From BD2-11 clade cluster bacterium bin43 (lineage in GTDB: Bacteria; Gemmatimonadota; Gemmatimonadetes; Longimicrobiales; Gaopeijiaceae), in contig MPMR01000003.1 in assembly GCA_002238605.1 (NCBI GenBank), forward strand, positions 1-64,000: a stretch of DNA of 64,000 nt. The letters run 5' to 3'. Position 1 is the stretch's first letter, and every line of letters starts with the position of its first letter. Position numbers and translations under genes: made by a program. Positions 49,793 through 55,756 of this stretch are shown here, piece after piece. Below the pieces are notes generated by a model that saw only the letters and a program-made list of their open reading frames with translations, did no database searches and was not told where the DNA came from.

Positions 49793-51205
49793 TCAAAGCG
49801 TCGCCCCCAGCACCGCGAAGCAGACGGCCGCCGCCCCTCCGGCCAGCAGCGCGTAGGGCAGCTGCGTGCGCACGTGGTCGATGTGATCGGTGGCCGCCGC
49901 CATGGACGAAATGATGGTGGTGTCGCTGATGGGCGAGGAGTGGTCGCCGAAGATGCCCCCGGAGAGCGCCGCCGCCACGAACGGGGCCAGCGGCATGCCC
50001 AACGTCTCCGCCACGGGCACCGCAATGGGCAACATGATGGCGAAGGTGCCCCAGCTCGAGCCGATCGAGAACGCGATCCCGCCCGCGACCAGGAACACGA
50101 GCGGCAGAAAGAGCATCGGCGGAAGCACGCCCTCGGTGACCTGCGCCACGTACTCGCCGGCGCCCAGGGTGCGCGCCACGGATCCCAGCGCCAGGGCCAG
50201 CAGCAGGATGAGCGCCAGCGGCATCAGCCCTCCCGCGCCCTTGAGGCCGGTCCGGGTGAGCTCGTCAAGGGTCGCGCCCCTCTGCGCCAGCAACAGCAGC
50301 CACGCCGCTCCCAGGCCGGCCAGCACAGCCCATAGCACGCTCGTCGACCCGGACCCCTCGAGCATCGATCCGCCGCCGGTCACGTACAGGCCCAGCGGCA
50401 TGGTCAGCACCATCACCGCGATCGGCACCAGCATGTTGCGCGCGCGCGGCGCGATTCGGCCGACCGGCGTGGGCGAGAGCACCGTCTCGTCCACCATCGG
50501 CTGGGCATTGGGCCACAGCACCTGTCCCTCCCGGGCCCGCTTCTCGGCCCTCTTCATGGGACCGATGTCGATCTTCCACATGATCGACGCGCCTGCGAGA
50601 AGGAAGGCGATGAGCGCGTAGAAGTTCACGGGAATCGCGGCGATGAAGACCCCGAGCGCGTCCTCCACGCCCAGCTCGTTCAGGATCCCCAGGTTCAGGG
50701 CTCCCCAGGCGTTCAGTGGAATGAGGATGCAGATGGGCGCCGAGGTGGAGTCGACGATGTAGGCAAGCCGTTCGCGGGAGATGCGGAAACGGTCGAAGAG
50801 CGGCCGCGACACCGCCCCGGCCACGAGCACCGTGATGTTCGACTCGATGAAGATCACGATGCCGATGATCCACGCCAGGAACTGGGCGCGGCGTCCGTCG
50901 GTGACCCAGCGGTTGCCCTCGATCCAGCGCACGAATCCACGCACGCCGCCGGCGGCTTCCAGCGTCGCGATCATCGCGCCGATGACCAGGGTGAACAGGA
51001 TCACCCGGGCGTTGCCGGGGTCGCCCAGCACCGCCACGGTCTGCTCGATCGCGGTGGCGAGGCCGGCGAGCGGGTTCCAGCCTTCGAGGATGGTCCAGCC
51101 GATCCAGATGCCCGCCGCAAGCGACACGTAGACTTGCCGGCTCCAGATCGCCAAGACGATCGCGAGGACGGTGGGAAGGAGCGAAATCCAGCCGGGTTCG
51201 TTCAT
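49793..51205 (-). CDS. NhaC-family Na+/H+ antiporter-like permease
   Basis: This is a 470-residue inner-membrane protein with about 11 hydrophobic segments. It starts [20 protein letters not shown] at 51205, overlapping the stop of the glycosylase gene (ATGA). Family blocks are [60 protein letters not shown] and [20 protein letters not shown]. These fit the NhaC-like Na+/H+ antiporter group, whose members also include malate/lactate-type exchangers. The ion and counter-ion are not decided by sequence. Confidence 0.88.
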
Positions 51206-51819
51206 CGGGTTCCGCCTGTGCGCCTGGAAACGTGAGGGTTGCCCTGAAGGAAGAAGCGCAGTTCGCGGTCGCGCGCCCGGGTTACCCCGATGCGCGGGGA
51301 CCGTGCGACGCTCCCGGCCGGAACCGGTTTCCGAGGAATGAGACGCAGGGGCGCCCGGTCCAGGAAGTGGCCGTCGAGCGCCCCTGTGACGCCCAGTGCC
51401 TGGCAGAGCCGCGCCGGACCGGAGCACAGGTCGCGGGTCCTGCCCCGCCGCGCCGCCATGGTGGCGTCACCCGCCACCGGCTCGAGCGCGCGCACCAGCA
51501 CCGCGGCCGGAAAGCCCTCCTGCCCGGTCACGACGTTCAGGCACCAGTGCATGCCGTAGATGAGGTAGACGTAGGCGATTCCGGGAGGACCGAACATGGA
51601 CGCGTTGCGCCTGGTGCGGCCGATTCGCTCGGCGGCGTGGGACGCGGGGTCGTGGGGTCCGGTGTAGGCCTCCACCTCTACGATGCGGCCCGCCGTTCGG
51701 ACGCCGCCCACGGTCGACTCCACCTCCCAGCCCAGAATGTCGGGAGCGACGGCCCGGGCGCCCCTCGCCAGAAGGCCGGGGAGCGTTTCGTTCGAAGCGG
51801 AGGTATCGAACGCCACCAC
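51202..51819 (-). CDS. 3-methyladenine DNA glycosylase (AAG/MPG family)
   Basis: The 205-residue base-excision enzyme removes alkylated purines. Conserved features are [31 protein letters not shown] with the catalytic Glu, [20 protein letters not shown] and MHWCLNVVT. The [14 protein letters not shown] region is present as [14 protein letters not shown]. It starts at a GTG 19 bases after the NYN-LOTUS gene and overlaps the antiporter start by four bases, so all three are probably one transcript. Confidence 0.93.
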
Positions 51820-51838: not shown

Positions 51839-54025
51839 TCAGGAGGATCCGCGGCGACGCCCCAGCCGTGTCCGCCGAGCTGCGTCCGAAGACGTCTTCC
51901 GGGTTGCGGCCTTCTTCGAGGTCGTGGCCTTCTGCGGGGTTGCGGCCTTCTGCGCGGTCGTGTCCTTCTGCGAGGTCGTGGCCTTCTTCGGGGTTGCGGC
52001 CTGCTGCGAGGTCGTGTCCTTCGGCGGGGTCGTGTCCTGTTTCGAGGTCGCGGCCTTCTTCGCGGTCATGTCCTTCTTCGAGGTCGCGGCCTTCTTCAAG
52101 GTCGCACTCTTCTGCGGGGCCGCGGCCTTCCTAGCGGTCGCACTCTTCTTCGAGGTCGTGGCCTTCTTAGCGGTCGCACTCTTCTTCGAGGTCGTGGCCT
52201 TCTTAGCGGTCGCGGCCTTCTGCGACGTCACCGCCCCTGGCGCGACCGCACTCTGCTCCGAACCCGCCTCCGTCCTGGAGCGGCGGCCGAAGTCCTCCAG
52301 CCACGCCTCTTTTACCTTGGCCACCCGGTTGGGCGGAAGGACGCCCTCCAGCTTCTCGATGGAGTCGTGCAGCACGTGGAAGACGCGGTCGCCGAAAACT
52401 TCGATGAGACGCTCCGCGGTCTTCGCGCCCACGCCCCGGTAGCGGTTGGCCAGGTAGCGCTGGACCGCGGCGGCATCGGTGGGCAGCCCGAGACCGCCGG
52501 GATCGAACGCGGGTTCGGGCTCGGCGCGCTGTTCACGCCTGGCGTCCTCCTTCTCGTGCTCGCGGGCCCGCTGGCTTTGACGCCACATGCGCAGCCGCGG
52601 CGAGCGGGGCGTTCGCCCGCCCTTCTTCGCAGCGGGCGCCTCCGCGGGCGCCGCCGGCTCCGCCGGAGCTGCGCTACCCGTCTGCGCGGAGGTGGAATCG
52701 GCCTCTCCCGCTTCCGCGACCGCTCCCCGCGACGCGGAAGCAGCGGCAGCCGATCCGTCGGGAGCCCCTTGCTTCGGCCCGGCGGGCGATCTGCTCCCGT
52801 CCTCCGATCCGGTGGGCGAAGCCTCAGCCGCCCGGGCACGGTCTGACCGGGGAAGCCGCACGACGAAGTTACCCGCCTCGTTGCGGCGGATGCGCACGAC
52901 CTCGTGCTCGTGGGCCTGCGTGAGGAACTTGCTGAACTTGCTGAAGCCGAGCCCCGCTTCGTCAAAGCTCCGGTCGAGGTCCAGCATGCGGCGCTTCACA
53001 TCGGAATCCCGCGTCCAGTTGTTGTCCGGGCTGATGTCCGGCAACGCCCTGCGCAGGAGCGCGTATGCGTCCGCAAGGGGGTCGGCGCCTTCTGCTCCGT
53101 TTCCGGAAACGCCCTCCCGGCGGGGTTCGCTCTCCGGGGACGCGGCCTCGCTGCGCGCCGCAGCCGCGCGCCTGCGCTCCGGACCACCGGGACCGCCTGC
53201 CCGGGTGCGCGCGCCGGGATGTCGTGGGGCGGAGCTGTCTCGCCGGCGGGCGCCCGCCGGAAGTATCTCGTGCTGGCCGTTCTCGAGCTTGCGCAGGCGC
53301 ACGAGCCCGCGGGAGGCCGCCTCCGCGAGAAACTTGCTGAACTTGCTGAAACCGTACTTCGATTCCTCGAAACCCGGGTTCATTTCCAGCATTACCTGCT
53401 TGAGGCGGTCCGAGCGCATCACGTCTCCGCGCTCGATCATCTTCTTCGACGCCTCACTGACCAGACTCCAGGGGTCCACGGACTTGCCCTTGTCTCCCGC
53501 GGACGTCTTCTGAAGTCCGGTGATCGACGAGTACGAGTAGTATTCGTCGCAGTTCTGGACCAGGATATCGGAGCTGGATTCCTGGATCCCCACCCCGATC
53601 ACGTACTTCCCGTACTCCTTCAGCTTCAGGACCAGACTGGAAAAGTCACTGTCTCCCGTAAGGAGAATGTAGGTTCCGATTTCCGGACGAATGAAGACCA
53701 GCTCCATGCCATCGATCGCCATGCGGATATCGGTGGCGTTCTTCTTCGAACTGCCGTAGGCGGGCGCGAAGATCAGGTCGACCGACGCCTCCGAGAGCGG
53801 CACGATGTACTGGGGATACCGGCGCCAGTCCGCGTAGGCCCGCTGGACGGTGACCTTGCCCTTGATGATGTCGGAGTTGAGGAGCGTCTTGATCTCTTTG
53901 GAAAGATCGCTCCGGATGCCCATCGTCACGTTGTCGAAGTCGATGAGCAGCGCCGCGTTGGGCGCCGAAGACAGGACCGGGCCCACCCCTTCGACATGCG
54001 GGGCGCGCGTGAAGTGATTGATCAT
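51839..54025 (-). CDS. NYN-domain / tandem OST-HTH (LOTUS) / HhH protein with H1-like tail
   Basis: This is a 728-residue multidomain protein. A LabA-like NYN (PIN-fold) ribonuclease domain fills about residues 20-170, with acidic-site Asp residues in [24 protein letters not shown] and [14 protein letters not shown]. Two OST-HTH/LOTUS RNA-binding domains follow at about 185-255 and 316-393, each with [10 protein letters not shown] or [11 protein letters not shown] charged Ala/Pro linker leads to a helix-hairpin-helix segment (about 495-560; [20 protein letters not shown]) like that of RecD2. The last 125 residues are nine Lys/Ala/Thr units resembling histone H1. It probably binds nucleic acid and cuts RNA. 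A glycosylase gene is 19 bases downstream. Confidence 0.85.
51890..52213 (-). repeat. Nine 36-bp tandem units encoding an H1-like Lys/Ala/Thr tail
   Basis: The repeat encodes 12-residue units in one frame, from [12 protein letters not shown] twice in perfect copy through degenerate versions ([24 protein letters not shown]) to [12 protein letters not shown], then an Arg-rich end. The pattern is that of bacterial histone-H1-like or AlgP-type tails that coat DNA or RNA. Copy number could vary between strains by slippage, without frame loss. Confidence 0.9.
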
Positions 54026-54139: not shown

Positions 54140-55756
54140 CTAGCCGTGCCGGCGCAGGATGTCAGCCCGCAAAAGGCGAGCCAGTTCTCCGCGTCCGACC
54201 TTCCCGGCTGCCGTCGCCGGGAAGTCGTCAAAAAATTGGATCCGATCAGGCACCTTGTAGGTGGCCAGCGAGGGGCGGCACCACGCTCTCAACTCCTCCG
54301 CCGAGACCATGGCCCCTTCGATCGTGTGCACGCAGGCGCAGACGGCCTCGCCCAGAAGTTCGTCGGGCAGGCCCACCACCACTACATCCCGTACCGCCGG
54401 GTGTGTCGCGATTCTGTTCTCGACTTCCCGGGGATACACATCGAACCCAGCCTTAATGATAACATCGCCCTGGCGACCGACCAAATGCAGGTAGCCGTCT
54501 TCGTCCACGATGCCCATGTCGCCGGTGTGCAGGAAGCGGTCAGCGTCGAAGTGCCGCCGGGTATTGTCCGGCTGCCGGTAGTAGCCGCGCATCACGCCCG
54601 GGCCGCGAACCCGGAGCTCCCCCAGGCTTTCGACCGGCAGCACGGATCCGTCGCCGTCGCAGACCCGCACCGAGACGTCGGCCAGCGGACGTCCCACGGT
54701 GAAGCGCTGCTTCTCGGGGGGATCCCCGGCGCGAGTCATGGAGAGGGTGGACCCGGCCTCCGTGAGCGAATACGCCACCTGCAGGTTCGGACAGAGCTCC
54801 TCGCGCACATGGCGCAGGGGGAGATCGCCGATGGGCCCGCCCGTGACGATGCCGGTTCGCAGGCTGGAGAGGTCGCGCGGCATGCGCCGCTGGGCATGCA
54901 GCTCGGTGAGGAAGTGCGTGGGCACACCGTAGTGCACGGTGGCGCGGTGCCGTTCGATCAGATCCAGCGCCTCCTCCCCCTCGAAGCTCTCCTGCAGCAC
55001 GATCGACGCGCCCGCGCCCGCGGTGCCGAGGATGGCGGGACCGAGCGAAAACGCGTGGAAGATGTCGCTGGCCCCTATGACGCGGTCAGCCGGGGTCACG
55101 CCCAGCTCCGCCGCGGTCTGGCGCGCGGGCTGCACCAGGTTGGCGTGGGTCAACTCCACGCCCTTCGGCTTTCCGGTGGTCCCGGCCGTGTAGAGCAGCG
55201 CGAATTGGTCGTCAGCCGCCAGCTCCGGCTGTGGACACTTCTTCGCCCGTCCCGCCGAGACCAGGTCTTCGAATGGATAGATCTGGTCGTCGTACCAGAG
55301 GTCGTCTTCACCAACCGTGATTACGTAGCCCAGTTCCGGCAGCTCTTCCAGCACTTCCTCGGCGAACTGCAGGTAGTCGATGCCTTCGAAGGTCTCGGGC
55401 GTCACCGCGACCGCGGCCTGGGAGTGACGCAGGCGGTAGCGCAGCTCGAGCGGCGGGAGACGGGGATTGAGCGGCACTACGACGATTCCGAGTCTGGCCG
55501 CCGCGAAGGCCGCCACGATGAACTCGGGACATCCGGGCAGCAGGATCGCGAGGCGGTCGCCCCGCTCGATGCCCAGGCGGTGCAGGGACGCCGCCAGGTC
55601 CCGGGCCTGGCTCTCCACCTGGCCGTAGGTCATCATGCCGCCCTCGAAGAGAAGAAACGGCCGGCCGGGATCGGAGGCCGCAGCCGCGGCCAGCACGGCG
55701 CCGGCTGTGGAGGGTGACGAACCCGGAGAACGGGCGCGGTCGGCGTCGCGGTTCAT
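54140..55756 (-). CDS. AMP-binding acyl-CoA synthetase/ligase
   Basis: The 538-residue adenylate-forming enzyme activates a carboxylic acid, probably a fatty acid, to its CoA thioester. Motifs are the P-loop [16 protein letters not shown] (about 185-200), YSLTEAGSTLSMTR, ELRVRGPGVMRGYYRQPD, LHTGDMGIVDEDGYLHLVGR and the C-terminal VPDRIQFFDDFPATAAGKVG with the catalytic Lys. It starts 23 bases after aroB on the same strand. Medium- or long-chain acids are the likely substrates, but the pocket cannot be read from sequence. Confidence 0.92.
   Translation of the reverse strand: MNRDADRARSPGSSPSTAGAVLAAAAASDPGRPFLLFEGGMMTYGQVESQARDLAASLHRLGIERGDRLAILLPGCPEFIVAAFAAARLGIVVVPLNPRLPPLELRYRLRHSQAAVAVTPETFEGIDYLQFAEEVLEELPELGYVITVGEDDLWYDDQIYPFEDLVSAGRAKKCPQPELAADDQFALLYTAGTTGKPKGVELTHANLVQPARQTAAELGVTPADRVIGASDIFHAFSLGPAILGTAGAGASIVLQESFEGEEALDLIERHRATVHYGVPTHFLTELHAQRRMPRDLSSLRTGIVTGGPIGDLPLRHVREELCPNLQVAYSLTEAGSTLSMTRAGDPPEKQRFTVGRPLADVSVRVCDGDGSVLPVESLGELRVRGPGVMRGYYRQPDNTRRHFDADRFLHTGDMGIVDEDGYLHLVGRQGDVIIKAGFDVYPREVENRIATHPAVRDVVVVGLPDELLGEAVCACVHTIEGAMVSAEELRAWCRPSLATYKVPDRIQFFDDFPATAAGKVGRGELARLLRADILRRHG

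Follow-up and report, generated by a model that had tools for sequence, protein, structure and literature searches.

The window, which is the whole 64 000-nucleotide stretch of DNA analyzed, comes from a contig of the 4.47-Mb genome G000, which its relatives place in Gemmatimonadota. On its minus strand it carries a complete open reading frame of 728 amino acids, checked for coordinates and strand, that encodes a NYN nuclease domain, two LOTUS (OST-HTH) domains, a helix-hairpin-helix (HhH) module and a basic tail. The gene lies between an acyl-CoA ligase gene upstream and a DNA glycosylase gene downstream. The features of the locus are listed below in the direction of transcription:

54140..55756, minus strand: AMP-binding acyl-CoA ligase, upstream with a 114-bp gap (PF00501, E 1.8e-84)
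51839..54025, minus strand: NYN-LOTUS-LOTUS-HhH protein with basic tail, complete open reading frame
53534..53956, minus strand: NYN (PIN-like) nuclease domain, residues 24-164 (Pfam NYN, Foldseek, VIA-align)
53255..53476, minus strand: LOTUS/OST-HTH domain 1, approximately residues 184-257 (PF12872 above cut-off; pLDDT about 87-96)
52850..53086, minus strand: LOTUS/OST-HTH domain 2, approximately residues 314-392 (PF12872 at residues 321-388; pLDDT mostly 95-98; TDRD7 fold match)
52250..52504, minus strand: HhH module, residues 508-592, with one canonical hairpin (GVGxKTA) and a second half without a GxG hairpin (RecD2, HHH_5 and XPF matches)
51899..52222, minus strand: 18 six-residue Lys/Ala/Thr units (18-bp tandem repeat), residues 602-709, in only this genome among those compared
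51842..51898, minus strand: basic C-terminal end, common to genus mates by comparison
51202..51819, minus strand: DNA-3-methyladenine glycosylase (MPG/AAG family), 19 bp downstream (PF02245, E 1.3e-60; NF002003 above cut-off)

Domain assignments

Profile searches agree with the original prediction on the NYN domain, both LOTUS copies and the HhH block, and predicted folds further back the NYN and LOTUS assignments. In the AlphaFold2 model, built from 58 sequences, LOTUS1, LOTUS2 and the HhH module are confident and the linkers between them are disordered, while a shallow alignment over the NYN domain leaves that part at low confidence (pLDDT mostly 40-79). Structure prediction therefore gave the LOTUS folds with confidence, and the NYN fold was recognized through Foldseek and VIA-align matches of a model that is itself uncertain in this part.

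The NYN domain is matched by Pfam PF01936 at residues 24-164 with an E-value of 6.2e-24 (85.6 bits against a cut-off of 24.2). The best Foldseek matches of the model are NYN domains, namely those of Vibrio VPA0982 (2qip, E 2.1e-5) and MARF1 (5yaa), the latter aligned by VIA-align over 127 residues with Z 13.6 and an rmsd of 2.9 Å; 6fdl is a further fold match, and 2qip is also the best sequence match to this part among solved structures (E 4.4e-6). Among the Foldseek and VIA-align matches listed, the FEN-type 5' nuclease fold is absent. The active-site aspartates that had been proposed fall in acidic columns that are invariant in the 58 aligned sequences and include D29, D31, D99, D105, D125 and D127. 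In the available text of the MARF1 study, the MARF1 NYN domain is a demonstrated metal-dependent endoribonuclease with an acidic patch of Asp358, Asp426, Asp427 and Asp452 (PMC6294520). By our own mapping, made by motif rather than by superposition, the invariant acids would correspond to these four residues.

Over the whole protein, PF12872 (OST-HTH) matches two stretches with an E-value of 3.7e-11, and each copy alone scores above the cut-off, at positions 52862-53065 and 53270-53422. Both copies contain the motif GFSKFSKFL, in keeping with the shared FSKFSKFL noted earlier. Structural matches of the LOTUS domains are to TDRD7 and TDRD5, with the LOTUS2 model aligning to the TDRD7 LOTUS domain (3rco) over 77 residues at Z 10.6 and an rmsd of 1.7 Å.

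For the HhH module, the NCBIfam RecD2 HhH segment matches residues 514-578 (E 2.7e-6), and all 22 family members sampled match it, the best at 3.3e-11; HHH_5 is matched by 11 of the 22. A search of the PDB with a profile of this region finds the XPF endonuclease (E 1.7e-5). GVG and TA are invariant in the family, and by eye the first hairpin is canonical and the second non-canonical. Predicted alone, the segment folds with a pLDDT of 92, and its Foldseek matches are weak, with LigA (DNA ligase) first and HhH regions of Hel308 also found. Since none of these falls below an E-value of 0.001, the HhH assignment rests on sequence profiles. The protein is not a RecD2 helicase: Pfam finds no helicase domain, and the RecD2 model scores 25.8 bits against a cut-off of 500, over the HhH segment only. 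An HhH profile search of the same genome at E 0.01 found no second copy, and thus no local donor was identified.

A local repeat array in the tail

The original prediction described the tail as nine 12-residue repeats. A repeat array is present, but its unit is better given as 18 units of six residues, the 12-mers being pairs of units; Tandem Repeats Finder reports a period of 18 with 18.2 copies, and a higher period of 54 bp. The array is absent from nine proteins compared (L009-L012, L112 and L114-L117). Four of these (L009-L012) are from genus mates that are about 80% identical overall and 96-97% identical over NYN-LOTUS1, and in the window protein the array directly precedes the C-terminal end that it has in common with them. 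This indicates a recent local expansion inserted before a common end. The chromatin-like tail, which had been taken as a defining part of the protein, is in this respect the local oddity that the original prediction had allowed for, and the same genus mates rule out an H1-like, Lys/Ala-rich tail as a conserved feature or functional module of the family. The HhH module, by contrast, is retained across a whole clade.

Among proteins with a tail of at least 15 residues, the tail is net positive in 66 of 75 with the HhH module and in all 21 without it. In two HhH-less proteins (L092 and L120) a Lys/Ala/Pro-rich, H1-like tail arose independently. Basic, disordered tails therefore recur, without conservation of their sequence. 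Disordered Lys/Arg/Ala-rich tails also occur in two Burkholderiales plasmid relatives with a NYN-LOTUS-like part (L132 and L133, from Caballeronia and Eleftheria), so basic tails recur beyond the phylum.

Distribution in the class and the phylum

In our phylum sample, the gene was found in 112 of 121 genomes, comprising 112 of the 115 genomes of its own class (Gemmatimonadota) and none of the six from another class. Whole-genome searches of near relatives found it in 56 of 59. It is normally present in a single copy per genome, and full-length matches are 61-97% identical over NYN and LOTUS1. A scan of GTDB genomes returned 316 relatives, and the best 80 of the 316 are nearly all labelled Gemmatimonadota. 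All 113 complete open reading frames have the order NYN then LOTUS (or LOTUS-LOTUS); 92 are NYN-LOTUS-LOTUS-HhH, 19 are NYN-LOTUS-LOTUS and 2 are NYN-LOTUS, counts in which a few loci represent one genome entered twice. Taken together, this is a near-universal and slowly evolving gene of one bacterial class, and it probably has a housekeeping role.

Three class members in the phylum sample (G088, G141 and G149) have no match despite a completeness of at least 95%, and are the only such cases there; G002, G006 and G057 are without a match among the 59 near relatives. Three records of metagenome-assembled genomes labelled Gammaproteobacteria (JAPPJO010000088.1, JAPPHB010000080.1 and VXNP01000059.1; L010, L011 and L028) have the gene order of the window and 79-93% protein identity, and the first two appear to correspond to genomes G010 and G008, placed in the window's own Gemmatimonadota genus. 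These labels look wrong. Some phage records also contain NYN-LOTUS relatives, as do plasmids; when viral contigs were scanned with the family profile, no relative came up.

Linkage to the MPG glycosylase

The gene order in the window's clade is aroB, acyl-CoA ligase, the NYN-LOTUS gene, MPG, Na+/H+ antiporter, etfB and etfA. MPG lies directly downstream on the same strand at 93 of the 104 loci with enough sequence. In the clade without the HhH module, MPG is still a neighbour at 19 of 21 loci, in contrast to the ligase (6/21, against 81/90 in the HhH-bearing clade), aroB (0/21), the antiporter (0/20) and etfB (0/19). Because these other flanks, which serve as an internal control, were lost while MPG stayed, selection likely acts on the NYN-LOTUS/MPG pair within the class, and the coupling to a 3-methyladenine glycosylase proposed from the single locus holds up in the survey of neighbours. 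AroB, the acyl-CoA ligase, the Na+/H+ antiporter and EtfAB were rejected as parts of the same system; their association is real in the HhH-bearing clade, with 0-6 of 19-21 loci in the other. That the gene has stayed beside MPG suggests that the two are expressed together and may have a common role after alkylation damage.

At 11 loci (L020, L024, L026, L029, L040, L044, L077, L093, L102, L110 and L126) MPG is not adjacent downstream, and most of these retain some of the other neighbours. Three plasmid NYN-LOTUS genes from beyond the phylum have no MPG annotated alongside.

Two clades with and without the HhH module

In a tree of NYN and LOTUS1, a single branch separates the HhH-bearing proteins from the rest (support 97/99, recovered in 98% of bootstrap trees), so the module was either gained once or lost once. 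Two outgroup proteins, from Caballeronia and Eleftheria, lack it by eye, which favours gain over loss, although the outgroup branch is long. The existence of an HhH-less clade shows that the module is inessential for the core role. LOTUS2 in that clade is strongly diverged, scoring 9-28 bits with the family's own models where it is found.

Relation to known proteins

Bacterial proteins with a NYN/DUF88 domain and a single or duplicated OST-HTH domain have been described before and predicted to be stand-alone RNases (Anantharaman, Zhang and Aravind 2010, PMC2848206), with genes for which the available text of that study reports no link to CRISPR or other known RNA-processing systems. The proteins studied here share with this LK-nuclease and OST-HTH group an N-terminal NYN/DUF88 domain followed by one or two OST-HTH domains, and differ in the RecD2/XPF-type HhH module of one clade, unmentioned in the same text, and in the class-wide linkage to MPG. 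Arabidopsis DNE1 has the same order of NYN and two LOTUS domains and is an endoribonuclease of mRNA decay that cuts mRNAs in vivo (PMC10226599); it is eukaryotic and acts with decapping factors, and neither an HhH module nor a basic repeat tail is reported for it in the available text. MARF1 (Limkain b1) likewise shares the NYN fold and LOTUS domains, but has RRMs and eight LOTUS domains, with no HhH module reported in the text available (PMC6294520).

Among solved structures, VPA0982 has the same NYN/DUF88 domain, but its 165-residue chain consists of the nuclease domain only, without LOTUS or HhH. The HhH modules of the RecD2 helicase and archaeal XPF are homologous to the one described here and have the GxGxxTA hairpin in common with it; the helicase or XPF nuclease domain is lacking here, and the second hairpin is non-canonical by eye.

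In the open-licence papers searched, where absence is weak evidence, we found no report of an HhH fusion or MPG linkage of NYN-LOTUS proteins, no paper on Gemmatimonadota with NYN, and none on LOTUS with methyladenine glycosylase; a mention of DUF88 in a Pseudomonas review proved to be the unrelated DUF883. To our knowledge the HhH fusion and the MPG linkage are new, while NYN with one or two LOTUS domains was already known in bacteria. LOTUS-NYN proteins have been studied in eukaryotic germlines and in plant mRNA decay, and in the literature searched none from bacteria had been studied functionally. Because this gene occurs in nearly all sampled members of one class, in single copy, and evolves slowly, it offers a good system for the ancestral function of LOTUS-NYN proteins. 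The interest lies in this conservation and in the MPG linkage rather than in the tail; the conserved neighbour and the HhH fusion are concrete hints, open to testing, that RNA turnover and DNA repair may be linked. Together with the near-universality and the MARF1-like nuclease domain, they make the protein a good candidate for an unrecognized housekeeping RNA-decay enzyme with a possible connection to DNA damage.

Probable function and alternatives

The gene product is, in our view, probably a housekeeping endoribonuclease of the MARF1/DNE1/DUF88 (LK-nuclease) kind, encoded once per genome across the class. Its LOTUS domains would pick the RNA, and its HhH module and tail would act as anchors. 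By analogy with MARF1 and DNE1, and with the invariant acids, metal-dependent endoribonuclease activity guided by LOTUS-RNA binding is the most likely one. The PIN-like NYN domain would be the catalytic part, using divalent metal to cut single-stranded RNA, and the two LOTUS winged helices would bind and select it. By analogy with their eukaryotic counterparts, they may favour RNA that is G-rich or structured, a kind expected to be abundant at a genomic G+C content of about 69%. The disordered Arg/Gly- or Lys/Ala-rich linkers and tails may hold the nucleic-acid backbone independently of sequence, a hold to which the RecD2/XPF-type HhH module would add in one clade, and such anchoring may let the enzyme act near DNA or on ribonucleoprotein.

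HhH folds occur mainly in proteins that act on DNA, and the partner conserved best is an enzyme of DNA repair, which makes it less than certain that RNA is the sole substrate. NYN and HhH could instead form a FEN-type or R-loop enzyme of genome maintenance that acts on RNA-DNA hybrids or flaps where base excision by MPG has opened the DNA, with LOTUS binding the RNA or hybrid part. In FEN nucleases, too, an HhH-like DNA-binding module accompanies a PIN-like core, and the RecD2/XPF/UvrC-kind module in all 22 members sampled, its weak Foldseek matches to LigA and Hel308 and the conserved MPG neighbour all fit. We regard this as unlikely, however: MPG adjacency persists in the clade without the HhH module, so module and neighbour are uncoupled, the nearest nucleases among the structural matches listed are RNase MARF1 and VPA0982 rather than FEN, and LOTUS domains are known to bind RNA, including G-rich or G4 RNA, or DEAD-box helicases. 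A damage-response role is plausible from gene linkage, the one line that points to it. In its specific form, a nuclease co-expressed with MPG would remove RNA that is alkylated or transcripts that have stalled where the DNA is damaged, and in one clade the HhH module would keep the nuclease on the damaged template; we think this version rather improbable, and if true it would connect cleavage of RNA (or of RNA-DNA hybrids) with alkylation damage across a whole class.

Returning to the endoribonuclease reading, its catalytic premise would fail if the NYN fold were a platform for binding RNA or the ribosome in a regulator that has lost cutting, and the MPG linkage an inherited operon. Adjacency inside one class can last by common descent, and the active site is not confident in the AlphaFold model. 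Against this, none of the acids that catalysis would be expected to need varies among the 58 aligned sequences, and the retention of MPG compared with the other neighbours exceeds a uniform decay of synteny, which leaves a non-cutting regulator a slim prospect. Least probable is an RNase of anti-phage or mobile-element defence, like several other PIN/NYN fusions. The plasmid and phage-record relatives and PHROG matches to the NYN domain would suit such a role, but PADLOC gives no match, and the gene is near-universal, single-copy and slowly evolving in a conserved chromosomal context, unlike patchily distributed defence genes.
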